Shown piece by piece: positions 1 through 17,448 of a DNA stretch of 38,389 bases. The notes below the pieces were generated by a model, which saw only the letters and a list, made by a program, of their open reading frames with translations, did no database searches and was not told the DNA's origin. Source of the stretch: Chitinispirillaceae bacterium (lineage in GTDB: Bacteria > Fibrobacterota > Chitinivibrionia > Chitinivibrionales > Chitinispirillaceae); contig JAFGNB010000104.1 of assembly GCA_016927235.1 (NCBI GenBank), positions 1 through 38,389 of the forward strand, written 5' to 3'. How positions within the stretch are numbered: position 1 is the first letter of the stretch; the number at the start of each line of letters is the position of its first letter. Made by a program: the position numbers and the translations under genes.

Positions 1-1041
1 CTGGTCGGACGATTCCGCGGCGGCCTTGCGTTTGTTAATATTTTAACAAGCATGCTGTTCGGCGCCATAGCAGGATCGTCGACCGCGGCGCTTTCGGGCG
101 TGGGAGGATTCATGATACCCCTGATGCACAAACTCGGATATAACCGGGAGTTCAGCACCTCGGTGACCGTCACCGCATCAACGACGGGCCTGCTGATTCC
201 GCCGAGTAACGTGATGATCGTTTACTCACTGGCAACCGGCGGCATGGTATCGATTGCAGCGCTCTTTATCGCGGGATACCTGCCGGGAATTTTGATGGGC
301 GCGGGGCTCATAGCGGTGAGCGGCTGGATTTCGGTCCGCAACAATTACGGAAAAGGAGCGTCGTTCAGCCTCAGAGACGCGGTGATGAGCCTGCTTCGGG
401 CGCTGCCGCCGCTCTTTCTGGTAGTTATCATCATCGGCGGGATACTTTCGGGATGGTTCACCCCCACCGAAGCCTCGGCAATCGCGGTTGTTTACGCGTT
501 GATATTATCGGTTGTCATATATCGCGAGGTGAGCGTCAGAGACCTCCCGCGGATCCTCCTGCAGTGCGGCATCACCACGGCGGTGGTGTTTCTGCTCATC
601 GGGACGAGCATGGCCATGTCGTGGGTGCTCGCCTCGGAACGGGTGCCTCAGGATATCGGCACTGCGCTGCTCGGCGCATCGTGCAACAAGGTTGTTCTCC
701 TGTTGATGATCAACGCCATTCTGCTTGTTGTCGGATGCTTTATGGATATGACGCCGGCGATCCTCATTTTCACCCCGATCTTCTTGCCTATTGTCGCGCA
801 GCTCGGGATCCACCCGCTCCACTTCGGCATCATCATGATCATGAACCTCTGTATCGGGTTGTGCACCCCGCCGGTGGGCACCTGCCTTTTTCTTGGATGC
901 AGCATCGGCGGAACGACCGTCACCAAGGTGATACGCTACATCATACCGTTCTTTATCGCGATGATCGTTACGCTGCTCGTTACGATATATGTTCCCGGAA
1001 TCAGCATGTGGCTGCCGGCGAAATGTGGACTTGTCAAATAA
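1..1041 (+). CDS. dctM: TRAP transporter large permease subunit, DctM type (5' end outside window)
   Basis: This gene is open from base 1 in frame with the ATG at 52, so its start lies upstream and roughly 80 residues are missing relative to the usual length of about 430. The visible 346 residues begin in a segment typical of DctM (LVGRFRGGLAFVN), followed by the Gly/Ser-rich stretch GAIAGSSTAALSGVGG. Many hydrophobic helices follow, with the conserved motifs TASTTGLLIPPSN and LCIGLCTPPVGTCLFLG. DctM is the ion-coupled inner-membrane channel subunit of TRAP transporters, which use a periplasmic DctP binding protein and the small membrane subunit DctQ; both would be expected upstream. Uronate isomerase follows after 54 bp with a strong ribosome binding site, so the likely cargo is a hexuronate, possibly 4-O-methylglucuronate. 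The substrate is inferred from context only. Confidence 0.93.
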   Translation: MVGRFRGGLAFVNILTSMLFGAIAGSSTAALSGVGGFMIPLMHKLGYNREFSTSVTVTASTTGLLIPPSNVMIVYSLATGGMVSIAALFIAGYLPGILMGAGLIAVSGWISVRNNYGKGASFSLRDAVMSLLRALPPLFLVVIIIGGILSGWFTPTEASAIAVVYALILSVVIYREVSVRDLPRILLQCGITTAVVFLLIGTSMAMSWVLASERVPQDIGTALLGASCNKVVLLLMINAILLVVGCFMDMTPAILIFTPIFLPIVAQLGIHPLHFGIIMIMNLCIGLCTPPVGTCLFLGCSIGGTTVTKVIRYIIPFFIAMIVTLLVTIYVPGISMWLPAKCGLVK

Positions 1042-1095: not shown

Positions 1096-2508
1096 ATGGC
1101 GCACTACCATCTGCATCCCGACCGGTTTTTCGATCCCGACCCGGAAATACGAAAATATGCGCGGGAAATTTATGAAACCATTACAAGCCTTCCGATCGTC
1201 AGTCCGCACGGGCATGTCGATCCGAAGATATTCGCGGAGAACCGGCCGTTTCCCAATCCCACGCAACTCTTCATCACCCCCGACCATTATCTGTTCAGGA
1301 TGCTTTACTCGCAGGGTATCCCTATGGAGTCGCTCGGCATCCCCACGGTTGATGGCAGCCAGGTTGAAACCGACCCGAAAAAGATCTGGCGTATTTTTGC
1401 GGAGCATTATTATCTGTTTAACGGCACGCCGACGGGGGTATGGCTCGATTACGAGTTCAATGTGGTCTTCGGGCTTAAGGAAAAGCCCGACGGCGGAAAT
1501 GCCCTGAAAAACTATGACGAATTGAACGAGAAACTGGGGTCGCCCGAGTTTCTGCCCCGAACGCTTTACAAGCGATTCAATATCGAAGTTATGTCGACCA
1601 CCGACGCCGCCGCCGACACCCTTGAGCACCACCGGTCGATACGGGAATCGGGATGGGACGGAAGGATCATCCCCTGCTTCCGGCCCGATACGGTGACGGA
1701 TATCTCGACGAAAAACTGGGCCGGAAATATCGCACGGCTCGGCGAACTCACCGGAAGCGCCGTCGATTCATTCGCCGGGTATATCGGCGCGCTGGAGGAT
1801 CGTCGGCGCTTTTTTCAGCGGATGGGCGCCACTTCCACCGATCACGGCGTGTTTGCACCCTATACGCACGAATTAACCGAAAAGGAGGCGGACGCGTTGT
1901 TCCGGAAGGCGCTGCAGGGGAAAGCCACGCCCGAGGACGCGCGGGTATTCACCGCCCACATGCTCATGGAGATGGCGCGGATGAGCACGAATGACGGGAT
2001 GGTTATGCAGATTCACCCCGGATCCTGTCGGAATCACAATCCGGCTCTTTTCGACAGATTCGGGCTTGACAAAGGGCATGACATTCCCGTACTCGCCGAG
2101 TTTACGCTCAATATGAGGGAACTGCTCAACCGCTATGGAAACGATCCTCGTCTGACCGTCATCGTCTTTACCCTCGACGAAGCGACCTATTCGCGCGAAT
2201 TGGCTCCGCTTGCCGGTCATTATCCGGCGCTGAAACTCGGACCGGCGTGGTGGTTCAACGACAGCATCCGGGGCATCACGCACTACCGAGAGTCGACGAC
2301 GGAAACCGCCGGTTTTTACAATACCGTCGGATTCAACGACGATACCCGCGCATTCGTTTCCATCCCCGCCAGGCACGACGTCTCCCGGCGAATGGACGCG
2401 AATTATCTCGGCGGGTTGGTCGCCCGGCACATCATCACCACCGACGAAGCATTGACAATAGCAAAAAACCTGACCTATCACCTGGTGAAGGAGGCGTACA
2501 AACTCTGA
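1096..2508 (+). CDS. uxaC: Uronate (glucuronate/galacturonate) isomerase
   Basis: The 470-residue protein has the usual length of UxaC. It converts D-glucuronate to D-fructuronate (or galacturonate to tagaturonate), the first cytoplasmic step of hexuronate breakdown. Family hallmarks visible are the N-terminal metal-binding HGHVDPKIFAEN segment at about residue 37, MQIHPGSCRNHNP near 306, and the C-terminal FNDDTRAFVSIPARHDVSRR region. The start is fixed by AGGAGGAATTCA immediately before the ATG. It lies 54 bp after dctM and is probably co-transcribed with it. Together with the SDR at 14135 and the sugar kinase at 15060 it supplies most of an Ashwell-type pathway. Whether it accepts 4-O-methylglucuronate is unknown. 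Confidence 0.97.
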   Translation: MAHYHLHPDRFFDPDPEIRKYAREIYETITSLPIVSPHGHVDPKIFAENRPFPNPTQLFITPDHYLFRMLYSQGIPMESLGIPTVDGSQVETDPKKIWRIFAEHYYLFNGTPTGVWLDYEFNVVFGLKEKPDGGNALKNYDELNEKLGSPEFLPRTLYKRFNIEVMSTTDAAADTLEHHRSIRESGWDGRIIPCFRPDTVTDISTKNWAGNIARLGELTGSAVDSFAGYIGALEDRRRFFQRMGATSTDHGVFAPYTHELTEKEADALFRKALQGKATPEDARVFTAHMLMEMARMSTNDGMVMQIHPGSCRNHNPALFDRFGLDKGHDIPVLAEFTLNMRELLNRYGNDPRLTVIVFTLDEATYSRELAPLAGHYPALKLGPAWWFNDSIRGITHYRESTTETAGFYNTVGFNDDTRAFVSIPARHDVSRRMDANYLGGLVARHIITTDEALTIAKNLTYHLVKEAYKL

Positions 2509-2776: not shown

Positions 2777-3940
2777 ATGCGCATTGCAATGCTTGCATGG
2801 GAGTCGCTCCATTCAATCGCCGCCGGAGGCGTGGCGGTACATGTCACCGAACTGGCGGCGGCGCTTGAACGGCAGGGCCATGAAGTGCACGTGTTTACGC
2901 GAATGGCCTGGCCCGGGCATTGGCAGTACGAACGCATTCACGGCGTCCACTATCACCGGGTTCCTTATGCCGGATGTCCGGATATCGTCGACGACTGCAA
3001 CGCCATGTGCAGATCATTCGTCAATGCGGTGTTTCATGTGGAAGACTATATGGGCGCCCACTTCGATATTGTCCATGCGCACGACTGGATGTCATCGAAT
3101 GCAATGGTGTGGATCAAGCAGGGCCGCGGTCGCAAGGGAATACTGACACTCCATTCCACCGAATACGGCCGTTGCGGCAATCATTTCTACGGCGGTCGTT
3201 CACAACGCATCATGGATCATGAACGTCACGGTACCTACTGCGCCGACAGGGTGATTACCGTCTCATGGGCATTGAAAAACGAAATAAAGTGGATATACAA
3301 CGTGCCGGATTGGAAGGCCTGCATGGTGTATAACGGTATTTCCTATTCAAGTTTCGACGGATATCTCGACCCGGGAAGGGTAAAGGCGCATTATCATATC
3401 GGGCCCGTGGATCCGACCGTCGCGTTCGTCGGCAGAATGACTTTTCAGAAGGGGCCCGATCTGCTCGTGGATGCGATACCGTATATAATGCGCTATCACC
3501 CGAACGCGAAGTTTGTTTTTACCGGGGAAGGTGATATGCGCGGACACGTTGAAAGTCGGGCGAGGGATCGTGGCGTGGGCAATGCATGCAGGTTCTACGG
3601 CACGATGGCGCGCGGCCAGCTCATCGATTTGTACAAATCGTGCGAATGTGTATGCATCCCCAGCCGTAACGAACCTTTCGGCATCGTCGTTTTGGAGGCA
3701 TGGGCCGCAGGTAAACCCGTAATTGCAACGGTAAACGGCGGGCCGGCGGAATTCGTATGGCATGACGTCAACGGCTATACAATACATCCCTCCCCTGAGT
3801 CGATTGCATGGGGTATCGGGACGCTGTTCAGTGATTTCGAGCACGGCCGCTGGATGGGCGCCAACGGCCGCAAAACCGTCGAAACCGCTTTTTCATGGGA
3901 TACGATCGCCGGTCACACCTATGGAGTTTACATTAGCTGA
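2777..3940 (+). CDS. GT4-family glycosyltransferase (glycogen synthase-like, GT-B fold)
   Basis: This 387-residue protein shows a complete GT-B layout. The N-terminal glycine-rich loop is AAGGVAVHVTELA (residues 16-27), an HAHDW motif lies near 100-104, and the nucleotide-sugar domain contains VGRMTFQKGPDLL (218-230). The GT4 acid pair is E299 and E307 in NEPFGIVVLEAW (EX7E). Members transfer a sugar from a nucleotide donor with retention; some related proteins make glycogen or other alpha-glucans. A TGAGGAT ribosome binding site precedes the ATG. It sits alone, 268 bp after uxaC and 121 bp before the corrinoid operon, with no obvious link to uronate breakdown. Donor and acceptor cannot be read from the sequence. 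Confidence 0.85.
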   Translation: MRIAMLAWESLHSIAAGGVAVHVTELAAALERQGHEVHVFTRMAWPGHWQYERIHGVHYHRVPYAGCPDIVDDCNAMCRSFVNAVFHVEDYMGAHFDIVHAHDWMSSNAMVWIKQGRGRKGILTLHSTEYGRCGNHFYGGRSQRIMDHERHGTYCADRVITVSWALKNEIKWIYNVPDWKACMVYNGISYSSFDGYLDPGRVKAHYHIGPVDPTVAFVGRMTFQKGPDLLVDAIPYIMRYHPNAKFVFTGEGDMRGHVESRARDRGVGNACRFYGTMARGQLIDLYKSCECVCIPSRNEPFGIVVLEAWAAGKPVIATVNGGPAEFVWHDVNGYTIHPSPESIAWGIGTLFSDFEHGRWMGANGRKTVETAFSWDTIAGHTYGVYIS

Positions 3941-4061: not shown

Positions 4062-4733
4062 ATGAATGAGCTAGTGGAAACGATCGGCCGTTGCGTCGAA
4101 CGGGGAAAAATCAACAAGGCGTCCCCCTTTCCCGGTGATATGAAGGGCCTGGACGGGGCGGACGAACTGACGCATCAGGCGCTCGAGGCGGGGACGGATG
4201 CCGAAGCTATTCTCCAGGCGTGCATTGCCGCAATGGTGCGTATCGGTGAGAAGTTCGGGAGGAATGAAGTGTTCGTGCCCGAGATGCTCATGGCGGCAAA
4301 AGCAATGAAGGCGGTGACTGAACATCTCAAACCGTTTTTCCAGTCGGGAAGCGTGCAGGCAAAGGGAACCTTTATCATCGGCACGGTCGCCGGTGACCTG
4401 CACGACATCGGCAAGAATCTTGTGTCGATGTTCGTCGAGGGAAACGGCTGGAACGTCGTCGATCTGGGGGTCGACGTTAAGCCGGAGAAATTCATCGATG
4501 CGATACGTAAACAACCGAAGTGTGTCGTCGGGTTGAGCGCGCTTCTGACCACCACTATCGTCAGCATGTCGAAGACGGTGCAGGAAATAAGGGCGCTGTT
4601 TCCCTCTATCAACATTGTCGTCGGGGGGGCCCCATTAACTATGGAGATTGCGAAGGAAATGGGAGCGAACGGGTATGCGCGCGACCCCCAGGGCGCGGTG
4701 AGGTGGCTTGCCGCAATCAGGGAGGCGTCGTGA
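4062..4733 (+). CDS. Cobalamin-binding (corrinoid) methyltransferase subunit
   Basis: The 223-residue protein has the two-domain build of MtaC/MtbC and MetH B12 modules. A helical cap (about residues 1-95, with EKFGRNEVFVPEMLMAAKAM) is followed by a Rossmann-like cobalamin domain. The latter carries the lower-ligand motif DLHDIGK (D112, H114, G117), the GLSALLTTT loop (S159) and the GGAP turn near 188-191. It carries the methyl group on cobalt between the methyl-donor and methyl-acceptor enzymes. I chose the ATG at 4062 because a GAAGGGG-type ribosome binding site sits about 8 bases before it; an in-frame ATG at 4035 lies before the Shine-Dalgarno sequence and would add 9 residues. Its stop overlaps the next gene's GTG, showing translational coupling to the homocysteine methyltransferase. 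Confidence 0.93.
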   Translation: MNELVETIGRCVERGKINKASPFPGDMKGLDGADELTHQALEAGTDAEAILQACIAAMVRIGEKFGRNEVFVPEMLMAAKAMKAVTEHLKPFFQSGSVQAKGTFIIGTVAGDLHDIGKNLVSMFVEGNGWNVVDLGVDVKPEKFIDAIRKQPKCVVGLSALLTTTIVSMSKTVQEIRALFPSINIVVGGAPLTMEIAKEMGANGYARDPQGAVRWLAAIREAS

Positions 4734-5614
4734 AATCGCTTCTTGCGGCGGTAAAAAAGGGCAAGGTGCTGGTATCGGACGGCGCGTGGGGCACTCAGCT
4801 TCATCAGTGCGGCCTCACGTCGGGCGAATGTCCCGAACTGTGGAACGTCACCCGCCGTGCCGATGTCTTTAGCGTGGCGAAAGGGTACATTGATGCGGGA
4901 GCGGACATGATCGAGACCAACAGCTTCGGCGGGAGCCCGTTGAAGCTCGGCCGTTACGGTCTTGGAGACCGTGCCGCAGAACTCAATGAAGCCGCTGCGG
5001 CGATTTCACGGGAAGCGGCGGGCGTCGACCGTTTCGTCCTCGGCTCCATAGGGCCCACGGGAGCGATCCTCATGACGGGCGAAGTAACCGAAGAGGAGCT
5101 TCGCGAAGGGTTCCGCATTCAGGCGGAAGCCCTGCAAAAGGGCGGGGCGGACGTCGTATGCATCGAGACCATGTCCGCCCTCGACGAGGCATGCATCGCC
5201 GTACGCGCGGCAAGGGAGGCTGCGGGGGGTGAAATCGTCTGCACGTTTACCTTCGAGAAAACCGCTACGGGTGAGTACCGTACCATGATGGGGATTTCCC
5301 CCGCCGAAATGGTACAGGCGGTCAAGGAGGCCGGGGCCGATATCATCGGAACGAACTGCGGCAACGGATTCGACGGCATGGTCGAGGTGGTCCGCGAAAT
5401 CAAAAAGGTAGACCGATTGACGCCGGTGCTGGTTCACGCGAACGCGGGGAAACCGGTGCTGCGGAACGGGGTAACGGTCTTTCCGGAGACGCCGGAGATG
5501 ATGGCATCGAAGGTGAATGACCTGATAGGCGCCGGCGCCGACATCATCGGCGGATGCTGCGGTACGGGTCCCGAACATATCCGGGCGCTGGCGGAGGCGA
5601 TCAGGTATCGATAA
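4730..5614 (+). CDS. Homocysteine S-methyltransferase (MetH N-terminal domain-type)
   Basis: The 294-residue protein matches the homocysteine-binding barrel of cobalamin-dependent methionine synthase: DGAWGTQL (17-24), ETNSFGG (62-68), GSIGPTG (105-111). The three zinc-thiolate cysteines are C210 (GTNCGNG) and C276-C277 (GGCCGTGP). It should activate homocysteine and take the methyl group from a methyl-cobalamin protein to form methionine. It contains only this module and has no pterin-binding, B12-binding or activation domain; two of those exist as separate neighbouring genes. The start is a GTG inside the upstream stop (gTGa) with GGAGG 4 bases before it, so this first gene overlap implies coupled expression. 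In the operon it would act as methyltransferase II. Confidence 0.93.
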   Translation: MKSLLAAVKKGKVLVSDGAWGTQLHQCGLTSGECPELWNVTRRADVFSVAKGYIDAGADMIETNSFGGSPLKLGRYGLGDRAAELNEAAAAISREAAGVDRFVLGSIGPTGAILMTGEVTEEELREGFRIQAEALQKGGADVVCIETMSALDEACIAVRAAREAAGGEIVCTFTFEKTATGEYRTMMGISPAEMVQAVKEAGADIIGTNCGNGFDGMVEVVREIKKVDRLTPVLVHANAGKPVLRNGVTVFPETPEMMASKVNDLIGAGADIIGGCCGTGPEHIRALAEAIRYR

Positions 5615-6354
5615 TGGAGCGTCTGCTGCCGCAGAGCGAACGGGAGGAGGGCGTCTTCGAGGTGACGATCGACGCCGCCGATGTCACGATAAGTAAAGAA
5701 GTGCTGTACCGTGCGCTCGGCTATTCCGATAACCGGATCGACCCTCATTTTAAAGACATTGTCGACCACGTGCTCGCAGGGATACATGATCTATGCGCCG
5801 TAAGGGCGGGATACCGGGTCCTTGACGCCCACGTTAAGGCGGACCGCGGTGAAGGTCTTGTGGTGGGCCGCACATTCATTACCACCGGGTGCACTATTGC
5901 CGGTCAGTTGAAAAACGCCGAAAAAGCGGCTCTTTTTCTCTGCACCATCGGTCCCGGTATGGAAGCATGGTCGCGTCGGTTGTTTCGGGAAGGCGATCCG
6001 GTAAGGGGCCATTTCGTTGATACGGCGGCGTCGCTTGCTGCGGAAAAAGCGGCCGCCGTTCTGCACGATCATATCGGGCTCGTCATGGCGGGCGGCGGAT
6101 TGAAAGTCACCAACCGCTTCAGTCCCGGATACTGCGGTTGGCCGGTGGCTGATCAGCGGCGACTTTTCTCTTTTTTTCCGGAAAATTTCTGCGGTATATC
6201 GCTGACCGAATCGGCGCTCATGGTGCCGGTGAAATCGGTAAGCGGGATGATCGGTATCGGTGCACATGCGATGAGGGAAAATTATTCCTGTGAACGGTGT
6301 TCGAGAAAAGAGTGCACCGCCTCCCGGGCATACAAAAACTCCGCGCCAACGTAA
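5614..6354 (+). CDS. MetH-type activation domain protein (AdoMet-dependent corrinoid reactivase)
   Basis: This 246-residue protein resembles the vitamin B12-dependent methionine synthase activation domain as a stand-alone protein. The AdoMet-binding RxxxGY motif is visible as RFSPGYCGWP (R168 to Y173). The preceding VDTAASLAAEKAAAVL helix and following SLTESALMVPVKSVSGMIGIG segment also fit. The role would be to remethylate cob(II)alamin that has fallen out of the cycle, using AdoMet and an electron donor. Unusually, the C-terminus carries a cysteine cluster C226-x2-C229-x4-C234, suggesting a metal or Fe-S site. The ATG overlaps the upstream TAA (taATG), a second overlap in the operon. It begins 880 bp after the homocysteine methyltransferase start and ends 14 bp before the URO-D gene. 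Confidence 0.88.
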   Translation: MERLLPQSEREEGVFEVTIDAADVTISKEVLYRALGYSDNRIDPHFKDIVDHVLAGIHDLCAVRAGYRVLDAHVKADRGEGLVVGRTFITTGCTIAGQLKNAEKAALFLCTIGPGMEAWSRRLFREGDPVRGHFVDTAASLAAEKAAAVLHDHIGLVMAGGGLKVTNRFSPGYCGWPVADQRRLFSFFPENFCGISLTESALMVPVKSVSGMIGIGAHAMRENYSCERCSRKECTASRAYKNSAPT

Positions 6355-6368
6355 AAGAAGGTGTACTC

Positions 6369-7394
6369 ATGACGGATCAACAATGGGAAGTGTTGAAAAA
6401 AGTGGTGGGGGGCGAGGCTGTCAAACCCTTGCCGGTCGGATTCATCGTCGATTGCCCATGGCTTCCGAACTGGTACGGTGTCACGATCCTCGACTATTTT
6501 TCAAACGACGGCGTCTGGTTCGACGCCAACCTCAAAGCGATCAGCGATTTTCCGGATGTCATGTTCCTGCCCGGGTTCTGGTCGGAGTTCGGCATGTGCA
6601 CGGAACCGTCGGCATTCGGGGCGCGCTGCACCTTCCCTTCCGACGAATTCCCCTTTGCGCATAAAATCATCGCTTCCGTCGACGATATCGATTTACTGAC
6701 AATTCCCGATCCGAGAACCGACGGACTGCTGCCGTTCATGCTCAACCGGCTGCGGCTCGCTCAGCCGCGCATTGAAGAGGCGGGCCATACGATCCGCTTT
6801 GCCGTTGCCCGCGGTCCGCTCAATATCGCAAGCTACCTCATGGGATCAACCGAATTACTGACCGCCATGATGATGCAGCCGGAAAAAGTACAGAGGCTTC
6901 TAACGACCATTACGTCGTTTCTTAAAGGGTGGCTTGGGCTGCAGCGGGAAACCTTCCCTTCCATCGACGGCATTTTTCTGCTTGACGATATCATCGGATT
7001 CCTCGGTAAAGAGGAGTTCCGTTCCTTCGGCCTGCCCTTCTTCAAGGAGCTTTTTACCACCGATGTCTCAATCCGGTTCCTTCATAACGACGCCCCCTGC
7101 AGGGTTTCCGCGCCGTTTCTTCCGGAGATGAACGTCAACCTGTTCAATATGGGGTTCGACATTACCCTCGCGGAACTCAAGGAGTTGACCGGCGATCGGG
7201 TCGCTCTGCTCGGCAACATTCCTCCGCGCGATGTGCTGGCTGGCATTGATAAAACAAAGATCGTCGATGCCGCAGGAAAGATGGTGAATTCCCTCCAGAA
7301 TACGACAAAGGTCGTTTTTTCCTGCGGGGGAGGAATGCCGCCCGGCGTTCGTTCTGAAAATATCCGGCTGTTTATTGATGCCGTGCGGAAATGA
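6369..7394 (+). CDS. Uroporphyrinogen decarboxylase-superfamily methyltransferase (MtaA/CmuA-like)
   Basis: The 341-residue protein belongs to the URO-D superfamily, which contains the corrinoid methyltransferases MtaA/MtbA and the CmuA methyltransferase domain as well as HemE. It lacks the HemE N-terminal arginine-rich substrate motif. C-terminal zinc-type residues are present: H239 in FLHNDAPC and C319 in FSCGGGMPPGVRSENI. The usual HxC is here HND with a Cys at 244. The expected role is to move a methyl group between a small substrate and the corrinoid protein. The start ATG has AGAAGG 7 bases upstream; an upstream in-frame start at 6297 would overlap the previous gene. No methyl-folate domain is present in the operon, so I infer this is the methyl-donor-side enzyme. 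It could alternatively be a second acceptor-side enzyme. Confidence 0.88.
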   Translation: MTDQQWEVLKKVVGGEAVKPLPVGFIVDCPWLPNWYGVTILDYFSNDGVWFDANLKAISDFPDVMFLPGFWSEFGMCTEPSAFGARCTFPSDEFPFAHKIIASVDDIDLLTIPDPRTDGLLPFMLNRLRLAQPRIEEAGHTIRFAVARGPLNIASYLMGSTELLTAMMMQPEKVQRLLTTITSFLKGWLGLQRETFPSIDGIFLLDDIIGFLGKEEFRSFGLPFFKELFTTDVSIRFLHNDAPCRVSAPFLPEMNVNLFNMGFDITLAELKELTGDRVALLGNIPPRDVLAGIDKTKIVDAAGKMVNSLQNTTKVVFSCGGGMPPGVRSENIRLFIDAVRK

Positions 7395-7523
7395 ATGGGA
7401 AGAAAGATACTACGAGAGTATATTTATAGAATATTTATGTGCTCATTGAATTCCGGCGGACACCTACCTTTCCAGCGCCGCCGGAAGAGGGGGAGAAACG
7501 ACAATCTTTTCAGGGGAGGAAAG

Positions 7524-10223
7524 ATGATGAAAACGTTCCGTGTACCGCCATGCGGGGTAGTGCTGTTTTTCTGTTTACTGTCCACATCGCCGCTCGCCTA
7601 TAACGGTTCTGAAGCATGGCTCCATTACACCGCCGTACCCGAGGGAATGAAGGCGGGGTATCAAGCCGTCTGTAAAAGCCTTGTGCTCTCCGATGCCGCT
7701 TCGGACACCTTGAAAAACGCACAGACCGAGCTGGATTTGGCAATGCCGAAATTGCTCGGCGGATCGAAACTGCCTGTTGCGGACGGGGCCGGGGCGATCG
7801 TTCTTGCGCCGGAGGGGTCGTCGCCCGTATCATCATCCGGTATCGATTACAGCAAGGTAACCGACGAGGGGTATATTATTAAGAGCAGCAACGGCAAGAC
7901 CTACATTACCGGTAAAAACCAGGTTGCCGTTCTGCGCGGAGTTTTCCACTTCCTTCGGCTTATGCAAACCGCCAAACCCATCGACAATCTCGATGTCGTC
8001 GAGAATCCCTATTTTCCCTACCGGGTGCTTGATCACTGGATTAATCACTATGGATCGAATGTTGAAACGGAACGGGTCTACGGCGGAGGTCGTGTATTTA
8101 AAATGGAAAATTTCGGAAACCTGCAGGGTGCGGAAAAGACACGGGTCATCAACTATTGTCGTTTGGCAGTTTCTTTAGGATTGAATGGAATATGTCCCGA
8201 TAATGTAAACACGTATCGTCAGAACAGCCTGGGGAACTACCGGTGCCTTGAGGAATCCAACCTTAAAAACCAGAAGGCATTTGCGGATCTTATAGGGACA
8301 TACGGACTCAACTACTATTTATCGGTATCCTATGCCAGCCCTCGGCTTGTCAGTCCGACCTACACCAGTGCAAACGCCTGGGATGACCCTAAAGCAAAAC
8401 AGTGGTGGTTCGATAAAGTTGCTGTTGTTATTTCCTACATTAAAAATTTCGGCGGGTTTTTAATGAAAGCCGATTCCGAAGGAGAAGAAGGTCCCCGTTC
8501 CACCTATAAGTTGAATCAGTCTCAGGGCGCCAATCCCATGGCGGAGGCCTTGAGAAAGCATGGCAAGGTAATGATATGGCGTACATTTATTTATGATACG
8601 TCGGATCCGGATTTCGCGATAAACCAATCCAAGGAGTTTGAGGCACAGACATGGGACGACGCCGTCATTTTGCGCAGCAAAGACGGGCCGCGTGATTTCC
8701 AGACGGTAGAACCGCCCAATCAGCTTCTTGCCATGGGAGGCGTTCGTCACGGCATGGAATTCCAGATCACCCAGGAATACACCGGACAGGATAAACATGT
8801 CTGCTGGCTGGTGCCGAAGTGGAAACAGATCCTCGATTGGGATATCAAAGGCGCAACCCTTCCTCCCTTTGGAGCCGAAGGAACGATCACCCGCCAGCTT
8901 CTCCGGGGTCCGGGTACGGCCACGTCGGGCGGGGGGGTATGGGGCATAAGCAATCTCAGCGATGCAGCCAACTGGACGGGGCATTTTATCGCTCAGGCGA
9001 ACTACTACGGATACGGCCGCCTGTCGTGGAATCCCCTGTTGAGCGCCGATCAAATCGCCGATGAGTGGATACGCTGCAGTTTTGACAAAGGGAATGATCC
9101 GGCGGTTCTATTTATTGTCAAGAATATGCTCATGAAATCATGGAAAACATATGAGGATTATACCATTTCCTACAGCGCCCTTATGCCGGCCCTGGGGAAC
9201 GACACCCATTATGAAATAGGTTTTGAAGCGATGAGGTCAAGCCGGTTTTATACCGTTTATTTCATGAATTTAACCGGTGACGGCATCGGCGTTGACCGTA
9301 CTCCGTCGGGCAATAACATGGTCCGTTATTTTCCAAAGGTCCTGGCCGATTCTTTCGCAACGGTCACCAGCTGCCCGGAAGACTACCTTCTGTTTTTCCA
9401 TCATTGCAAGTGGGAATACAAAATGAAATCGGGAATGACACTGATCCAGAGCCTTTATCATAACCACTTTCGCGGACTCAAGCAGGTGAGGAATTTCATC
9501 AACAACTGGAAGCTGCTTTCGGGTACGGTCGACGCGGAGATTCATTCCCATGTCACGAGCAAACTCAACACCCAGAACACCGACGCCAAACGGTGGGTAA
9601 ATACGTTTAAAAGCGATTTCGGTTCGAAATACTCCACGGCCGTCGGGTGCGATCTTTCGATAATGATTCCCGATGAGACCAAGGCGGTGACGTTGGCGGT
9701 AGGGGGAAGCGTTACTCTGTCGTCAAAGTATACCGATCAGAAAGGCGCCGCCGTCAGCGAGACGATACGATGGAGGGTGTGCCGCGAGCGGGAGGATCTT
9801 TCTCCGGAAGAGGGCGGCGTGCTGAGCGCCTCCGAAGGTGCGAGCGTAACGTTTTCCGCTGATTGTGACGGAGTGTACAGGGTCACCGCATCAACGGCGA
9901 CTTTTCCGGACCTAACGGACCAGATTCAGATTTTCGTCGGAGACTGGGCAAATGGGTGCCCGAGCGGTATCGGCTCCAGCATGATGGGCAAACCCGGAAA
10001 ATTATCAATGAATATCATCAATGGACCGCGTGGAATCGTCATTTCCACACCATGTCCGGGAAAAATCGATATTGTCGGATTACAGGGGCGCATCGTACGC
10101 TCTATTTCAGCGAACAAACCGGGGACCTATTTCTGGAACACAGGGGAAACTGCCAAAGGGCTCTACCTTATTCGGCTGCGAAATGAAATGCAAAGCCTGC
10201 GGAGCAAGCTGATCGTAAAATGA
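7524..10223 (+). CDS. Secreted GH67 alpha-glucuronidase with C-terminal Ig-like and sorting-type domains
   Basis: GH67 enzymes remove terminal glucuronate or 4-O-methylglucuronate from xylo-oligosaccharides. This 899-residue protein has a signal peptide (about residues 1-26) and the GH67 landmarks. These include FLMKADSEGEEGP with putative acid E319, RSKDGPRDFQTVEPP with D391, MEFQITQEYTGQ with E418, and APMWK-like LVPKWKQILDWD. The spacing E-72-D-27-E fits the known family catalytic trio. The catalytic part ends near residue 700. An Ig-like region (about 718-805) and a type IX/FlgD-like C-terminal segment (GKIDIVGLQGRIVRSI to LRSKLIVK) follow; normal GH67 enzymes lack these. The start was chosen at the ATG after GGGGAGGA; ATG 7527 is equally possible. 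An upstream in-frame reading frame without signal peptide is unlikely. Confidence 0.93.
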   Translation: MMKTFRVPPCGVVLFFCLLSTSPLAYNGSEAWLHYTAVPEGMKAGYQAVCKSLVLSDAASDTLKNAQTELDLAMPKLLGGSKLPVADGAGAIVLAPEGSSPVSSSGIDYSKVTDEGYIIKSSNGKTYITGKNQVAVLRGVFHFLRLMQTAKPIDNLDVVENPYFPYRVLDHWINHYGSNVETERVYGGGRVFKMENFGNLQGAEKTRVINYCRLAVSLGLNGICPDNVNTYRQNSLGNYRCLEESNLKNQKAFADLIGTYGLNYYLSVSYASPRLVSPTYTSANAWDDPKAKQWWFDKVAVVISYIKNFGGFLMKADSEGEEGPRSTYKLNQSQGANPMAEALRKHGKVMIWRTFIYDTSDPDFAINQSKEFEAQTWDDAVILRSKDGPRDFQTVEPPNQLLAMGGVRHGMEFQITQEYTGQDKHVCWLVPKWKQILDWDIKGATLPPFGAEGTITRQLLRGPGTATSGGGVWGISNLSDAANWTGHFIAQANYYGYGRLSWNPLLSADQIADEWIRCSFDKGNDPAVLFIVKNMLMKSWKTYEDYTISYSALMPALGNDTHYEIGFEAMRSSRFYTVYFMNLTGDGIGVDRTPSGNNMVRYFPKVLADSFATVTSCPEDYLLFFHHCKWEYKMKSGMTLIQSLYHNHFRGLKQVRNFINNWKLLSGTVDAEIHSHVTSKLNTQNTDAKRWVNTFKSDFGSKYSTAVGCDLSIMIPDETKAVTLAVGGSVTLSSKYTDQKGAAVSETIRWRVCREREDLSPEEGGVLSASEGASVTFSADCDGVYRVTASTATFPDLTDQIQIFVGDWANGCPSGIGSSMMGKPGKLSMNIINGPRGIVISTPCPGKIDIVGLQGRIVRSISANKPGTYFWNTGETAKGLYLIRLRNEMQSLRSKLIVK

Positions 10224-10360
10224 ACTCCAAAGAATATCCGGACCTGATAAAGGCCTTGATTTTATCGGAGGAATAGAGTTATTTCATATCGACATGAGAC
10301 GGCTGCGGGGGGAGAAAAGCGCTGTCTCGTATGTTTCCAGAAACGGAAAAAGGTTTGACT

Positions 10361-10966
10361 ATGAGAGCCTTCAGCGGTGCGGCTATGTGTGTTGTATTGT
10401 TGTCCTGTTTTTCACATGCAAAGAGTACCTTTTCTTCATTTTCATGGGCTCTGGCACTTCCCGTCGGCAACACGTCGGCAATGACCCTGCCTTATACCAA
10501 CTGGAAGAGACTCGATGTCGGCTGGGACGCCGGCATGACTTTTTTCGGTAAACCCTTTTTAAAATTAGACAATGCGTCGTCCGACCTGGCATTGGGCGGA
10601 AAAATCAGCTACAGCCGGTGGAAGCGTGATTCGACGTTGACTCCAGTCACTTTTCTCGGAATGCAGGGCATTTTACGATATTTTATCCCTTCTCAATATC
10701 TCCCTCCGATGATCGAGCCGTTCGATCTTTTCGCTCAGGCGGGCGGGGGGCTATTCATCGGAGAATACGGTTTTACCTCTCCCGACACGACTGACTGGTC
10801 TCAACCGCCAGCGGAGGTTAAAGTAACCGAAGGTAAAAAGTACTTCGGGATGAATGTGGGAGTCGGGATCAACTGGAATGTAATTGAGATCATGCCCGTA
10901 GTGACGATGGTTTTTACAAATAAACCGTCCATGTGGTTGTCGATCAGCGCAGGAATGACCTTTTAG
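10361..10966 (+). CDS. Predicted outer-membrane beta-barrel protein (small)
   Basis: The 201-residue protein starts with a signal peptide (MRAFSGAAMCVVLLSCFSHA), and AAAAAGG lies 8 bases before the ATG. The remainder is rich in alternating aromatic/hydrophobic beta strands and glycine turns (FDLFAQAGGGLFIGEYGF, YFGMNVGVGINWN, MWLSISAGMTF). It ends with Phe, the classical outer-membrane insertion signal. I do not recognise a named family. It lies between the GH67 enzyme and another outer-membrane protein and is on the same strand, so it may be co-expressed and assist passage or binding of xylan oligosaccharides or uronates. This role is inference from position. Confidence 0.75.
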   Translation: MRAFSGAAMCVVLLSCFSHAKSTFSSFSWALALPVGNTSAMTLPYTNWKRLDVGWDAGMTFFGKPFLKLDNASSDLALGGKISYSRWKRDSTLTPVTFLGMQGILRYFIPSQYLPPMIEPFDLFAQAGGGLFIGEYGFTSPDTTDWSQPPAEVKVTEGKKYFGMNVGVGINWNVIEIMPVVTMVFTNKPSMWLSISAGMTF

Positions 10967-10981
10967 GGCAACGGGGGAACG

Positions 10982-12466: not shown

Positions 12467-12604
12467 CCCGATCAACGCGCCGGAGCTGCAGAACGGCATC
12501 CATGGCGGCGGAGAGAATTCAACCGCCGTACGTCGGGGGAGCAGGGAGAGGGCGTGCATCGGCAGTCTGCTATCGACACCTTTTAGTTGAAAGGATTTCG
12601 TAAA

Positions 12605-14059
12605 ATGGAAAAAAAAGGTGACATTGCGGTCATCGGACTTGCCGTTATGGGGCAAAACCTCATTTTAAATATGAACGATCACGGCTATACGGTAGTCGCG
12701 CACAACCGGACGGTTTCGAAGGTCGATGAATTTCTCGACAACGCTGCGAAGGGCACGAAGGTCATCGGCGCTCATTCGATCGAAGAGACGGTGGGGCTTC
12801 TTAAAATGCCGCGCAAGATTATGCTCATGGTCAAGGCGGGCGAGGCGGTGGATCAGGGAATCGAGAAACTGCTTCCGCACCTCTCGCCGGGAGACTGCAT
12901 CATCGACGGTGGCAATTCTCACTTTACCGATACGATACGGCGGACGACATGTCTCGAAGAGAAAGGTTTTCTTTATATCGGTACCGGCGTTTCGGGAGGC
13001 GAGGAGGGGGCGCGCAGGGGGCCTTCCATGATGCCGGGCGGCAGCCCGAGGGCATGGCCTCTTGTAAAAGACATCTTCAGGGCGATCGCCGCCAGAACGC
13101 CCGACGGCGTTCCCTGCTGCGACTGGGTGGGCGACAACGGCGCAGGCCACTATGTCAAAATGGCCCACAACGCCATCGAATACGGCGACATGCAGATCAT
13201 CTGCGAGGCCTACCACCTCATGAAACAGGGCCTCGGCCTCACTTCCCGCAGAATGCACGCCGTTTTTTCACGATGGAACAAAACCGAACTTGACAGTTAC
13301 CTTATTGAGATCACCGCGGACATCCTCGCCTACAGGGACGACGACGGAAAGGCCCTCGTCGAAAAAATACTGGACAAGGCGGGGCAGAAGGGGACCGGAA
13401 AATGGTTCAGCGTCAACTCGCTCGATTTGGGCATTCCGGTCACGCTCATCGCCGAAGCGGTCTATGCGCGCTGCCTGTCGGCGCTGAAGGACGAGCGGGT
13501 CGCCGCGGCGAAGGTGCTTGCGGGGCCTCATGCAAAGATTACCGGCGACGCCGCGGCATTCGTCGAAGACATCCGTCGCGCGCTGCTCGCTTCAAAGATC
13601 GTCTCCTATGCCCAGGGGTTCATGTGCATGCGCGAGGCGGCGAGGGAGTACCACTGGACCCTCGACTACGGCAACATCGCCATGCTGTGGCGAAGCGGCT
13701 GCATTATCCGGAGCGTTTTTCTCGAAAGAATCAAGGCGGCGTACGACCGCAATCCGGGTCTTTCCAGCCTGCTGCTCGATGATTATTTCAGGGCGCTGAT
13801 CGATAAATGTCAGAAATCATGGAGGAGAGTCGTCATGACGGCGGTGAGAATGGGCGTCCCGCTCCCGGCGTTTTCGTCGGCGCTTGCGTTTTACGACGGA
13901 TACCGCTCTGAGAAACTGCCCGCGAACCTGCTGCAGGCGCAGCGCGATTACTTCGGCGCTCATACCTACCGACGTCTCGACGCTCCGGCGGATAAAATAT
14001 TTCATACCAACTGGACAGGGCGGGGCGGCGAGGTGGCGTCGGGGACCTATACGGTGTAG
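12605..14059 (+). CDS. gnd: 6-phosphogluconate dehydrogenase, decarboxylating
   Basis: Gnd oxidises 6-phosphogluconate to ribulose 5-phosphate, CO2 and NADPH. The 484 residues agree with the family length. Visible are the Rossmann motif GLAVMGQNLILNM, the VSGGEEGARRGPSMMPGG substrate loop, the KMAHNAIEYGDMQII helix with the catalytic Lys, and the C-terminal RDYFGAHTYRRLD and FHTNWTG segments. An AAAGGA ribosome binding site lies 9 bases before the ATG; an in-frame TTG at 12587 would precede that site and is not preferred. The gene sits in the hexuronate region between outer-membrane genes and the mannonate SDR, an unusual location, since Gnd acts on phosphorylated gluconate and not on Ashwell-pathway intermediates. 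See the LarA entry for a possible reason. Confidence 0.96.
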   Translation: MEKKGDIAVIGLAVMGQNLILNMNDHGYTVVAHNRTVSKVDEFLDNAAKGTKVIGAHSIEETVGLLKMPRKIMLMVKAGEAVDQGIEKLLPHLSPGDCIIDGGNSHFTDTIRRTTCLEEKGFLYIGTGVSGGEEGARRGPSMMPGGSPRAWPLVKDIFRAIAARTPDGVPCCDWVGDNGAGHYVKMAHNAIEYGDMQIICEAYHLMKQGLGLTSRRMHAVFSRWNKTELDSYLIEITADILAYRDDDGKALVEKILDKAGQKGTGKWFSVNSLDLGIPVTLIAEAVYARCLSALKDERVAAAKVLAGPHAKITGDAAAFVEDIRRALLASKIVSYAQGFMCMREAAREYHWTLDYGNIAMLWRSGCIIRSVFLERIKAAYDRNPGLSSLLLDDYFRALIDKCQKSWRRVVMTAVRMGVPLPAFSSALAFYDGYRSEKLPANLLQAQRDYFGAHTYRRLDAPADKIFHTNWTGRGGEVASGTYTV

Positions 14060-14134: not shown

Positions 14135-14986
14135 ATGGATCATACATTTCCGGACGATTTAAAGGGAAAATGCTGCGTTATAACCGGCGGCGCCGGGGTC
14201 ATCGGCTGTGCACTTGTCGAGGCGCTTGCACGTGCGGGCGTCAAAACGGGGATCATCGATCTCAACGGTGAACTTGCAATATGCAAGGCCAAGGAGATTG
14301 CCGATTCGACAGGCGGAAAAGTGATCGGCATTGCGGCGAACGTTCTTGAAAAAGCATCTCTCTTTGAAGCGAAAAAAACAATCAATGATGCGTTGGGGCC
14401 TGTTGACCTGCTTATTAATGCCGCGGGCGGCAACTCTCCGAAAGCCACCACGGGTGCGGAATTCATCGACGGTGCCGATATCGACCACCTCGAACGGACC
14501 TTTTTCGGTCTCGATCTTGAAGGGTTCCGGACCGTCTTCGATCTTAATTTCATGGGAACGCTGCTGACGACCATGGTATTCGCCAGGGACATGGTTGAAC
14601 GTAACGGCGGGGCGATACTCAATATCTCCTCCATGAATTCTTTCCGGCCTCTAACCCGCATTCCCGCCTACTCTGCGGCAAAAGCGTCGATCAATAATTT
14701 TACCGCCTGGCTCGCCGTACATCTTGCCCGCCGGAGTGTACGAGTCAATGCCATTGCACCCGGATTCTTCCTGACCGAGCAGAACCGGTTTCTCCTGTAC
14801 GAAAAGGAATCGGGCAGCCTGAGCCCACGGGGCAGAAAAATCATCAATGCCACACCCATGCAACGGTTCGGAACACCGGACGAGTTGCAGGATGCGACGC
14901 TTTTCCTCCTTTCCAACCGGTCGAAATTCATTACCGGAACAGTATTGCCGATTGATGGAGGTTTCAGCGCCTATTCTGGTGTGTAA
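14135..14986 (+). CDS. uxuB: SDR-family D-mannonate oxidoreductase (fructuronate reductase)
   Basis: The 283-residue protein is a classical short-chain dehydrogenase. The cofactor loop TGGAGVIG lies at residues 17-24, NAAGG near 91-95, the catalytic Ser is in NISSMNSF, the YxxxK pair is YSAAK, and the C-terminal ITGTVLPIDGGFSAYSGV is typical. Among SDRs, the DLNG after the second beta strand, the long GADIDHLERTFFGLDLEGFRTVFDLNFMGTL insert and the NRFLLYEKESGSLSPRG loop match the D-mannonate oxidoreductase group (the Bacillus UxuB type, unrelated to the E. coli enzyme). It would reduce fructuronate made by UxaC to D-mannonate. GGGGAAGGGG precedes the ATG. The next gene in the cluster is the sugar kinase. 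Confidence 0.85.
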   Translation: MDHTFPDDLKGKCCVITGGAGVIGCALVEALARAGVKTGIIDLNGELAICKAKEIADSTGGKVIGIAANVLEKASLFEAKKTINDALGPVDLLINAAGGNSPKATTGAEFIDGADIDHLERTFFGLDLEGFRTVFDLNFMGTLLTTMVFARDMVERNGGAILNISSMNSFRPLTRIPAYSAAKASINNFTAWLAVHLARRSVRVNAIAPGFFLTEQNRFLLYEKESGSLSPRGRKIINATPMQRFGTPDELQDATLFLLSNRSKFITGTVLPIDGGFSAYSGV

Positions 14987-15059: not shown

Positions 15060-16142
15060 ATGAAAAACGGTTTGAACATTGCACCGCAGGGGGCATTCGA
15101 CTTCATTTCACTCGGAGCGCTTGTCCACCGGCTCGACACGGGGATTACTCCTTTCCGTAAGGCCACCGAGTGCCTGATCCACATAAGCGGCGGAGAATTC
15201 AACTGCGCGGCAAATCTGGCGGACTGTTTCCGCTTGAAAACCGGCATCGCTACCGCGATGGTCGATTATCCGATCGGCGACCTGATAGCCGAGAGGATAC
15301 GTGAGATGGGCGTCACGCCATTTTACAAACAGTTCAGGCATAACGGCGTCAACGGTCCCAACATGGCAACGGTTTACAGCGACCGCGGCCAGGGGATCCG
15401 GCCGCCGATGGTCTTTTACAACCGCTCCAACGAGGCGGCGGCCCTGCTCAAGCCTGGAGACTTCGACTGGAAGGCCATCTTTTCCGGCGGGGTACGATGG
15501 TTCCATAGCGGAGGAATCTTCGCGTCGCTCTCCGAGACAACCAGCCGGGTGATCATCGAGGCCATGAAAGCCGCGAAAGAGGCCGGAGCGATCGTCTCCT
15601 TCGATCTTAACTACCGCAAAAAACTCTGGAACATCTGGGGGAGTCATGAGCGCACACTTGCAGTGTATGCTGAAATTGTCAAATACGTCGATGTTCTGGT
15701 CGGCAATGAGGAGGATCTGCAGAAAGGACTCGGCGTCAAGGGGCCGGAAGTCGATAAGAAATCGAAATTCGATCCGAGCGTCTTTTTCGGCATGATCGAT
15801 GAGGTAACGGCAGGATACCCGCAAGTGAAGATTGTCGCCACCACCTTGCGGGAAGTCCACACCACCAACCACCATACATGGGGAGCCGTTGCCTGGATCA
15901 ACGGACAGACCGTTATCTCCCCCACCTGCGAACTCGCCGTCTACGACCGGGTCGGCGGCGGCGACGGATTCGCTTCGGGCCTGTTTTTTGGCCTGCTCTC
16001 CGGCGAAGACCCGCAGACGGCGGTCAATCTTGGTTGGGCCCATGGAGCGCTTCTTACCACCTTTCCCGGCGATACCACCATGGCGACCATGGAACAGGTC
16101 CGCGCGTTTGCCGAGGGGGGATCAGCGCGCATTCAGCGCTGA
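15060..16142 (+). CDS. kdgK: PfkB-family sugar kinase, probable 2-keto-3-deoxygluconate kinase
   Basis: The 360-residue protein shows the PfkB/ribokinase fold: an N-terminal GGEFNCAANLA motif (about 40-50), the FDLNYRKKLW segment, NEEDLQKGLG, and the C-terminal anion-hole motif GGGDGFASG with catalytic base D302. KDG kinases phosphorylate 2-keto-3-deoxygluconate to KDPG, and the FYNRSNEAAALL motif is typical of that subgroup. AAAGGAG is placed 8 bases before the ATG. The context (uxaC, mannonate SDR) supports KDG. Mannonate dehydratase and KDPG aldolase are not in this window, however. With LarA and Gnd alongside, a gluconate-kinase role cannot be excluded from sequence alone. Confidence 0.82.
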   Translation: MKNGLNIAPQGAFDFISLGALVHRLDTGITPFRKATECLIHISGGEFNCAANLADCFRLKTGIATAMVDYPIGDLIAERIREMGVTPFYKQFRHNGVNGPNMATVYSDRGQGIRPPMVFYNRSNEAAALLKPGDFDWKAIFSGGVRWFHSGGIFASLSETTSRVIIEAMKAAKEAGAIVSFDLNYRKKLWNIWGSHERTLAVYAEIVKYVDVLVGNEEDLQKGLGVKGPEVDKKSKFDPSVFFGMIDEVTAGYPQVKIVATTLREVHTTNHHTWGAVAWINGQTVISPTCELAVYDRVGGGDGFASGLFFGLLSGEDPQTAVNLGWAHGALLTTFPGDTTMATMEQVRAFAEGGSARIQR

Positions 16143-16170: not shown

Positions 16171-17448
16171 ATGCTTTTTTTCAACAAAGGTTCACCCACT
16201 ACCGAACTCTCGTTCAACGACCTGCGAGAGGGCGTTTCGACCGCGCTCGCTGCGTTCGGTCCGATCGGGAAGATGCTCGTCGTACCTCCCGATATAACCC
16301 GTCTGCATTCGCATGCGGGCGATATCACGCGCTGCGTTTACGAACAGCTCCCTCGTTCGGCAGGTGCCGTCATGCCCGCTCTCGGCACACATCTTCCCAT
16401 GACCGACAGCGAGATCGAAGCGATGTTCGGTGACCTTCCAAAGCGGCTCTTCAGGCCGCACCGGTGGCGGACCGACTGTGTGCCGGTCGGCATCGTCCCC
16501 GCTGATTATGTTTCAACGGTATCCGACGGCATTGTTGATTATGAGATTCCAGTATCAGTCAACAGGCTGCTTCTCGACCCGTCATTCGACTGCATTTTCT
16601 CCGTCAGTCAGGTGGTGCCTCACGAGGTGGCCGGAATGGCGGGCTACAGCAAGAACCTTGTTGTAGGCCTAGGTGGAGCGGAAAATATTCACAAGACCCA
16701 TTTTCTTGGTGCCGCCTTTGGCATGGAACGGATTATGGGACGGGACGATACACCGGTAAGAAAGGTGCTTAACTACGCGGTCAAGGAGTTCCTTGCGGAC
16801 ATTCCCCTCGTCCATGCCGTTACGGTGATCGGGTCGGATGGGAGCGGCGTTCCGAAGATACGGGGCCTTTTCATCGGTAACGACGATGAGTGCTACCATC
16901 AGGCGGCGGAACTGTCTCGTACCGTCAATGTACATCTATTCGATGCGCTGCTGAAAAAAGTGGTGGCATACCTCGATCCGCTCGAGTACAAGAGCACCTG
17001 GCTCGGCAACAAGAGCATCTACCGCACCCGGATGGTCATCGCCGACGGAGGAGAGCTTGTCGTTCTTGCGCCCGGCGTGAAGCGTTTCGGAGAAGATCCG
17101 CAGATCGACAAGCTCATCCGGACGTTCGGCTACCGGGGCACGTCAGCCACCATTAAGGCAGTTAAGGAACATGCCGCGCTGAAAAACAATCTCAGCGCCG
17201 CAGCTCACCTCATTCACGGCTCTTCTGAGGGACGTTTTTCTATAACGTATTGCGCGGGCGGGCTTGACCCGAAAGCGGTCGAAAACGCCGGGTTTTGCTA
17301 TGCGCCGATAAACGAAATGATGAGAAAGTACAATCCGGGCAAACTCTCCGAAGGGTACAACCGCCTGTCCGACGGTGAGGAGATCTATTTCATTTCCGCA
17401 CCCGGGACAGGGCTATGGGCCTGGAAAGGGAGGTTCGGTAGTGGATGA
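16171..17448 (+). CDS. LarA-family nickel-pincer racemase/epimerase, possible mannonate/gluconate 2-epimerase
   Basis: The 425-residue protein has the length of lactate racemase LarA and its key residues. The PDITR motif has R44, GTHLPMT gives H74, and VVPHEVAGMAGYSK gives H151 and K161. H177 follows in ENIHKTHFLG. The spacings H-10-K and K-16-H are the same as those of the cofactor-anchoring Lys and the nickel/catalytic His residues in LarA, so the nickel-pincer site appears intact. LarA homologues include 2-epimerases of hydroxy acids and sugar acids. Placed 28 bp after the kinase and next to a mannonate-forming SDR and gnd, interconversion of D-mannonate and D-gluconate is the best guess. 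The larBCE cofactor genes are not in the window. The ATG lacks a strong ribosome binding site. Confidence 0.82.
   Translation: MLFFNKGSPTTELSFNDLREGVSTALAAFGPIGKMLVVPPDITRLHSHAGDITRCVYEQLPRSAGAVMPALGTHLPMTDSEIEAMFGDLPKRLFRPHRWRTDCVPVGIVPADYVSTVSDGIVDYEIPVSVNRLLLDPSFDCIFSVSQVVPHEVAGMAGYSKNLVVGLGGAENIHKTHFLGAAFGMERIMGRDDTPVRKVLNYAVKEFLADIPLVHAVTVIGSDGSGVPKIRGLFIGNDDECYHQAAELSRTVNVHLFDALLKKVVAYLDPLEYKSTWLGNKSIYRTRMVIADGGELVVLAPGVKRFGEDPQIDKLIRTFGYRGTSATIKAVKEHAALKNNLSAAAHLIHGSSEGRFSITYCAGGLDPKAVENAGFCYAPINEMMRKYNPGKLSEGYNRLSDGEEIYFISAPGTGLWAWKGRFGSG

Follow-up and report, generated by a model that had tools for sequence, protein, structure and literature searches.

In the UroD-type corrinoid O-demethylases of acetogens and methoxydotrophs (OdmB, VdmB, MtvB and MtoB), a URO-D superfamily methyltransferase with a carboxylate in place of a cysteine Zn ligand acts together with a corrinoid protein and an activator on aryl methyl ethers. 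Few plant polymers are as abundant as glucuronoxylan. Many of its acidic side groups carry a 4-O-methyl group, and in wood xylan no acidic side sugar is more common than 4-O-methylglucuronic acid. Here we describe a four-gene corrinoid cassette in a 38,389-nt stretch of DNA (the window) from contig JAFGNB010000104.1 of a Chitinispirillaceae bacterium (assembly GCA_016927235.1, genome G000), which an earlier, sequence-only reading had proposed to demethylate 4-O-methylglucuronate. Genomic linkage to α-glucuronidase and uronate genes, together with an H-x-D metal site, supports that proposal: the cassette most probably encodes an oxygen-independent corrinoid O-demethylase of 4-O-methylglucuronate, or of its first catabolic products, that passes the methyl group to homocysteine. 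Within the literature searched, which was open access with subscription journals mostly outside it, we found no described corrinoid demethylase for 4-O-methylglucuronate, in keeping with what the earlier reading had stated, and no described enzyme for the anaerobic use of this sugar.

Reading frames and domains bear out the tight cassette that had been recognized at positions 4062-7394, as well as its place 129 bp ahead of a glycoside hydrolase family 67 (GH67) α-glucuronidase. The genes for a stand-alone corrinoid protein (CorP), a homocysteine methyltransferase (HcyMT) and a reactivation protein (Act) overlap by 1-4 bases, with the GTG start of HcyMT overlapping the stop of CorP and the start of Act lying 1 bp inside the stop of HcyMT; the URO-D gene begins 14 bases after Act. 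Promoter and terminator scans performed no better than on shuffled sequences. CorP carries the DxHxxG...SxL...GG motif of the corrinoid carriers MtgC, MtbC and the MetH B12 domain (D112-x-H114-x-x-G117, S159-A-L and G188-G189, kept with at most one exception among 26 sequences). Its nearest solved structure is 1y80, and it scores 173 bits against the 370 required for NF047996. HcyMT has the three Zn cysteines of PF02574 homocysteine S-methyltransferases (C210, C276 and C277), which are conserved across 24 sequences and align with those of T. maritima MetH (1q7m). Act matches T. maritima 1j6r and scores 38 bits against PF02965 (cut-off 25); its N-terminal part has diverged, and the RxxxGY motif that binds S-adenosylmethionine (AdoMet) is present as R168-x-S-P-G-Y173 (RFSPGY), conserved in 23 sequences. 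In G001, another genome of the genus, the order is CorP-HcyMT-Act-UROD-GH67-GH67-o211-o494-Gnd-SDR-PfkB-LarA, the same as in the window and at about 48-88% identity, so the arrangement is not an assembly artefact. Elsewhere in the window's own genome (L160, contig C111), two tandem MetH-like frames with homocysteine methyltransferase and pterin domains are present, one of 497 aa that is open at the contig end and one of 834 aa that stops after the B12 domain and has no activation domain.

The URO-D protein scores 105 bits against PF01208 (cut-off 23.9). Its AlphaFold model (predicted local distance difference test, pLDDT, 92.7) has the (β/α)8 URO-D fold and aligns with HemE and MtaA at template modelling (TM) scores of 0.71-0.82, the best being 0.82 with M. 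mazei MtaA (4ay8), a methyl-corrinoid:coenzyme M methyltransferase. HemE was the only match in PDB sequence searches, and the protein falls outside the MtaA/CmuA subfamily (TIGR01463, 41 bits against a cut-off of 235.4). Both cysteine ligands of the thiol-methylating relatives are lost, H-x-D...G replacing H-x-C...C, and H239-N240-D241 is invariant in 76/76 family members as well as in a sister clade described below. In O-methyltransferases of the URO-D superfamily the cysteine ligands are swapped for carboxylates or non-coordinating residues (PMC10418091), and the H-x-D site agrees with a predicted role as an O-demethylase, not an S-methyltransferase. The window has what that work takes to mark a UroD-type O-demethylase, namely URO-D and a corrinoid protein in one operon and a carboxylate replacing a cysteine Zn ligand (PMC10418091); in place of the tetrahydrofolate methyltransferase and RACE activase of UroD-type systems, it encodes HcyMT and a MetH-type activator. 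S-methylating MtaA-like or type 1 MGC Mlp systems have H-x-C...C and at least two Mlps plus Ram, whereas the window has one URO-D and no Ram or RACE, and a type 1 mlp cluster for selenium or sulfur methyl groups is ruled out by the Zn ligands and gene content. C319 was considered as a second cysteine ligand and dropped, since a better alignment puts the MtaA-type cysteine at column 321, which is glycine here, and S, G or V can stand at the position of C319.

Scanning one genome per species with a URO-D alignment yielded 467 candidate relatives, and the best 80 loci, many of them cut by contig ends, were read. These are 57-83% identical to the window protein and come from about ten phyla, including Fibrobacterota, Ignavibacteriota, Bacteroidota, Calditrichota, KSB1, Neomarinimicrobiota, Spirochaetota, Verrucomicrobiota and WOR-3. 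GH115 lies near URO-D in 28/80 loci, whereas its frequency in 50 of the URO-D genomes, mostly a single copy in about 4 Mb, would predict about 0.25. GH115 or GH67 is present in 34 of the 80 and any xylan enzyme in 43, while UxuA occurs in 10 and a short-chain dehydrogenase/reductase (SDR) in 16. The recurrent neighbours are GH43, GH115, GH10, GH8, SDR, GH88, LacI, GH3, UxuA, GH67, MFS, FGGY kinase and GH30. The order GH8-GH115-GH43-CorP-HcyMT-Act-UROD is repeated, often together with UxuA and mannonate oxidoreductase (SDR), and several loci look like a single pathway, among them L047: GH8-..-GH115-GH43-CorP-HcyMT-Act-UROD-UROD2, then UxuA and SDR. When 50 URO-D genomes were tested, most had a member of the same CorP subfamily (E below 1e-80), in some cases at a different site.

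At the level of whole genomes, we compared 217 genomes drawn evenly from the class Ignavibacteria (the class of G062). An α-glucuronidase (GH115 or GH67) is encoded in 22 of the 25 genomes with the URO-D family and in 1 of the 192 without it (Fisher p 7e-26, which is not to be taken literally because the genomes are related and not phylogenetically independent). Those 25 genomes hold 21/21 of the GH115-bearing and 19/20 of the GH67-bearing members of the class sample. Among 168 Fibrobacterota genomes, GH67 is present in 4/4 with URO-D and 7/164 others (p 1e-5). The sequence-only reading had named in advance a finding that would count against it, an operon occurring mostly in genomes without glucuronoxylan genes; the opposite result was obtained in both Ignavibacteria and Fibrobacterota. 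A coincidental neighbourhood is ruled out by this class-wide co-occurrence and by conservation over phyla.

What the sequences show is the identity of the genes, their conserved catalytic motifs and the linkage to α-glucuronidase and uronate genes; the substrate, the one of three sugar forms that is used, the acceptor and the flux through the pathway are inferred. GH67, or GH115 in relatives, would free 4-O-methyl-D-glucuronate outside the cytoplasm, and a TRAP or MFS transporter would import it. In the cytoplasm, the metal site of URO-D would hold the sugar ether oxygen while the methyl group is transferred to Co(I) of the corrinoid protein, from which HcyMT would pass it to homocysteine; given the homocysteine methyltransferase, methionine is the likeliest product. 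Corrinoid oxidized to Co(II) would be rescued by the MetH-type protein, drawing on AdoMet and an electron donor. Once demethylated, the sugar, as glucuronate, fructuronate or mannonate, would then proceed through UxaC, mannonate oxidoreductase and onward.

The hexuronate gene run that had been described around the cassette is present, with a glycosyltransferase (GT4) gene and a 6-phosphogluconate dehydrogenase in addition.

Table 1 Positions of the cassette and neighbouring genes in the window.
Feature	Positions	Strand	Family evidence and remarks
TRAP transporter large permease DctM (C-terminal part as read)	52..1041	+	PF06808
UxaC glucuronate isomerase	1096..2508	+	PF02614; NF002794 above cut-off
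GT4 glycosyltransferase, between UxaC and cassette	2777..3940		
Stand-alone corrinoid (B12-binding) methyl-carrier protein (CorP)	4062..4733	+	PF02310 + PF02607
Homocysteine S-methyltransferase (HcyMT), methyl acceptor side	4730..5614	+	PF02574, E 6e-70
Stand-alone MetH-type AdoMet-dependent reactivation protein (Act)	5614..6354	+	PF02965, residues 167-235 (C-terminal part)
URO-D superfamily methyltransferase, proposed 4-O-methylglucuronate O-demethylase subunit	6369..7394	+	PF01208, E 5e-30
Secreted GH67 α-glucuronidase	7524..10223	+	PF03648/PF07488/PF07477; apparent signal peptide, weak type IX secretion system (T9SS)-type C-terminal tail
6-Phosphogluconate dehydrogenase (Gnd)	12587..14059	+	TIGR00873 above cut-off
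SDR D-mannonate oxidoreductase (fructuronate reductase)	14135..14986	+	NF006132, 370 bits (cut-off 281)
PfkB-family kinase, probably for a sugar acid	15060..16142	+	PF00294; NF041633, 235 bits, below cut-off
LarA-family nickel-dependent putative hexonate 2-epimerase, approximate start	16200..17448	+	NF052594, 584 bits (cut-off 500)

The GH67 enzyme is a divergent member of its family, with all three GH67 domains and the three catalytic carboxylates; aligned to G. stearothermophilus 1mqp, it retains the equivalents of E285, D364 and E392. In four Fibrobacterota genomes the cassette adjoins an α-glucuronidase, genes for uronate uptake and isomerization, or both: G003 has DctP-DctQ-DctM-UxaC before CorP-HcyMT-Act-UROD, and in G007 about 3 kb separates GH67 from CorP and URO-D. 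Two proteins without a Pfam match (o211 and o494, of 211 and 494 aa; window positions 10331-12466), probably located in the outer membrane, come after GH67 in G000, G001, G002, G003 and G007. A locus of G002, of the same genus (L158, contig C289), has the GH67-o211-o494-Gnd-SDR block and not the demethylase cassette, which suggests that the cassette was gained or lost as a whole.

The 4-O-methyl group of glucuronate becomes the 3-O-methyl group of mannonate after the action of UxaC and reduction. The earlier view that hexuronate pathways have no obvious way to lose the methyl ether was too strong as a general statement, as mannonate dehydratase (UxuA), which would take out that very position, could in principle eliminate methanol; in the window's genus, however, no UxuA was found in three genomes, all of them 86-90% complete drafts. 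G003 has UxuA. Because Gnd, the mannonate SDR, PfkB and the LarA epimerase stand in the UxaC gene run and no UxuA was found in the genus, the gene content suggests that glucuronate likely passes here through mannonate, gluconate and 6-phosphogluconate to ribulose 5-phosphate, and not through 2-keto-3-deoxygluconate (KDG). Such a route would require a free C3 hydroxyl, and removal of the methyl group would thus be needed in this genus.

A quick tree sets apart two Bacteroidales clades, whose URO-D proteins depart from those of the xylan clade at no more than 2-3 positions that are otherwise fixed. One of them (L084, L092, L093, L095 and L099) adjoins DUF6807 proteins and GFO/IDH/MocA oxidoreductases, with no xylanases. 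The substrate of these clades may be the same sugar from other glycans, or other methyl sugars.

Several points weigh against assigning the cassette to 4-O-methylglucuronate. An alkyl methyl ether is chemically harder to cleave than an aryl ether, the kind of bond on which enzymes of this class are known to act, and the substrate and acceptor are predictions from genomic evidence. If every methyl group ended up in methionine, more would be made than growth requires, and there may be a further methyl sink. Some relatives, such as G002 and G268, have GH67 without the cassette, and the Ignavibacteria counts include related genomes. About half of the 80 loci, many of which are short contigs, have no xylan enzyme in the stretch read, and the two Bacteroidales clades truly have other neighbours (GFO/DUF6807, or none recognized), outside xylan loci. 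Methoxylated aromatics such as ferulate or vanillate, co-released with xylan, might be demethylated by URO-D in the manner of OdmB or MtvB, which would also place the genes in xylan loci; phenyl methyl ethers are the substrates of known UroD-type O-demethylases, and an esterase of PF00756, a family including feruloyl esterases, occurs in 8/80 loci. We nevertheless consider this quite unlikely, because the link, in loci and in genomes, is with α-glucuronidases, the linked uronate genes (UxuA, mannonate SDR, UxaC and TRAP) are unneeded for ferulate use, the window yielded no esterase and the recurrent neighbours showed no aromatic-catabolism genes.

A different sugar would fit the Bacteroidales members, which sit with GFO oxidoreductases and DUF6807 and not with xylanases: the cassette might act on another methyl sugar of plant polymers (an O-methyl-pentose or O-methyl-fucose) if the methyl ether of glucuronate were handled elsewhere, for example by UxuA eliminating methanol from 3-O-methylmannonate, and UxuA does lie beside the cassette in 10 loci. 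With no UxuA seen in the three incomplete drafts of the window's genus, a neighbour set that is that of glucuronoxylan, and so few fixed differences separating the Bacteroidales clades from the xylan clade, we find this explanation very improbable. Equally hard to sustain is a split methionine synthase, for housekeeping or salvage, with another methyl donor and an incidental place near xylan genes. CorP, HcyMT and Act do correspond to the parts of MetH minus its folate domain, and split methionine synthases exist (PMC12478193), but clustering with GH115 and GH67 across phyla is far above chance, and of ten URO-D genomes that were checked nearly all encode a multi-domain MetH at another site, which disfavours a housekeeping role.

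Two further URO-D groups bear on the fate of the methyl group in the proposed sugar O-demethylase. A sister URO-D, about 30% identical to the window protein, is present in 7 of the 25 URO-D genomes of Ignavibacteria. Sister loci L135 and L136 have the order GH67-GH10-GH115-GH43-UROD-CorP-HcyMT, with a GH9 inserted in L136, and so repeat independently the link between a URO-D cassette and α-glucuronidases. The next genes in L136 encode a methylenetetrahydrofolate reductase (MTHFR)-like protein and a pterin-binding methyltransferase, L139 is followed by genes of equal lengths, and a RACo/RACE protein is encoded near the cassette in L139 and L141. Given these folate one-carbon (C1) genes, the methyl group there probably also reaches folate, and the sister clade is possibly a folate-linked version of the same pathway. 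UROD2, a second MtaA-like URO-D that keeps H-x-C...C, stands beside the cassette in 10 loci. Such a protein lies near the demethylase in L029, L033, L034, L043, L047, L048, L062, L071 and L075, and also in L142 and L144; it might serve as an overflow by which excess methyl groups reach another thiol.

Taken together, it seems rather likely that these systems form a class of anaerobic corrinoid sugar O-demethylases, spread by horizontal transfer across at least six phyla that degrade xylan, that would channel the 4-O-methyl group of hemicellulose into methionine, and into folate C1 metabolism in the sister clade, and would supply the missing anaerobic step of glucuronoxylan use. If so, the cassette would explain how anaerobes digest the methylated xylan sugar without O2, closing the glucuronoxylan pathway and bringing a large plant-derived methyl pool into methionine and C1 metabolism. 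It would also add a sugar ether to the aryl ethers already known as substrates of corrinoid O-demethylation, and would offer a marker gene for full glucuronoxylan use. Purified proteins and cultured relatives in the Ignavibacteria offer direct means of testing this reading.

Compared with OdmB, VdmB, MtvB and MtoB, the context here is that of a methylated uronic acid. Their acceptor is tetrahydrofolate, or its archaeal counterpart, and their activator is the ATP-dependent RACE; the window instead encodes a homocysteine methyltransferase and a MetH-like activator, and it is unusual for an O-demethylase to have an AdoMet-type activator where others have RACE. In the sister clade a folate methyltransferase, MTHFR and RACo are encoded nearby. 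MtaA, MtbA, CmuA and the type 1 mlp clusters (PMC10418091) belong to the same superfamily, and UROD2 is MtaA-like, but the window differs in its lack of cysteine ligands, its single URO-D and the absence of Ram or RACE. The split methionine synthase/glycine betaine demethylase MtgBCDE of marine bacteria (PMC12478193) likewise uses a separate corrinoid protein to couple demethylation of a nutrient to homocysteine methylation. Its donor enzyme is the MttB-family MtgB, acting on glycine betaine, and it includes the folate methyltransferase MtgD, whereas the window has a URO-D donor and neither an MtgB nor an MtgD gene. Cytochrome P450 oxidative demethylation of the 6-O-methyl-D-galactose of porphyran (PMC10033563) also removes a methyl ether from a polysaccharide-derived sugar; that route needs O2 and makes formaldehyde, whereas the cassette would carry out an anaerobic transfer in which the methyl group is conserved.

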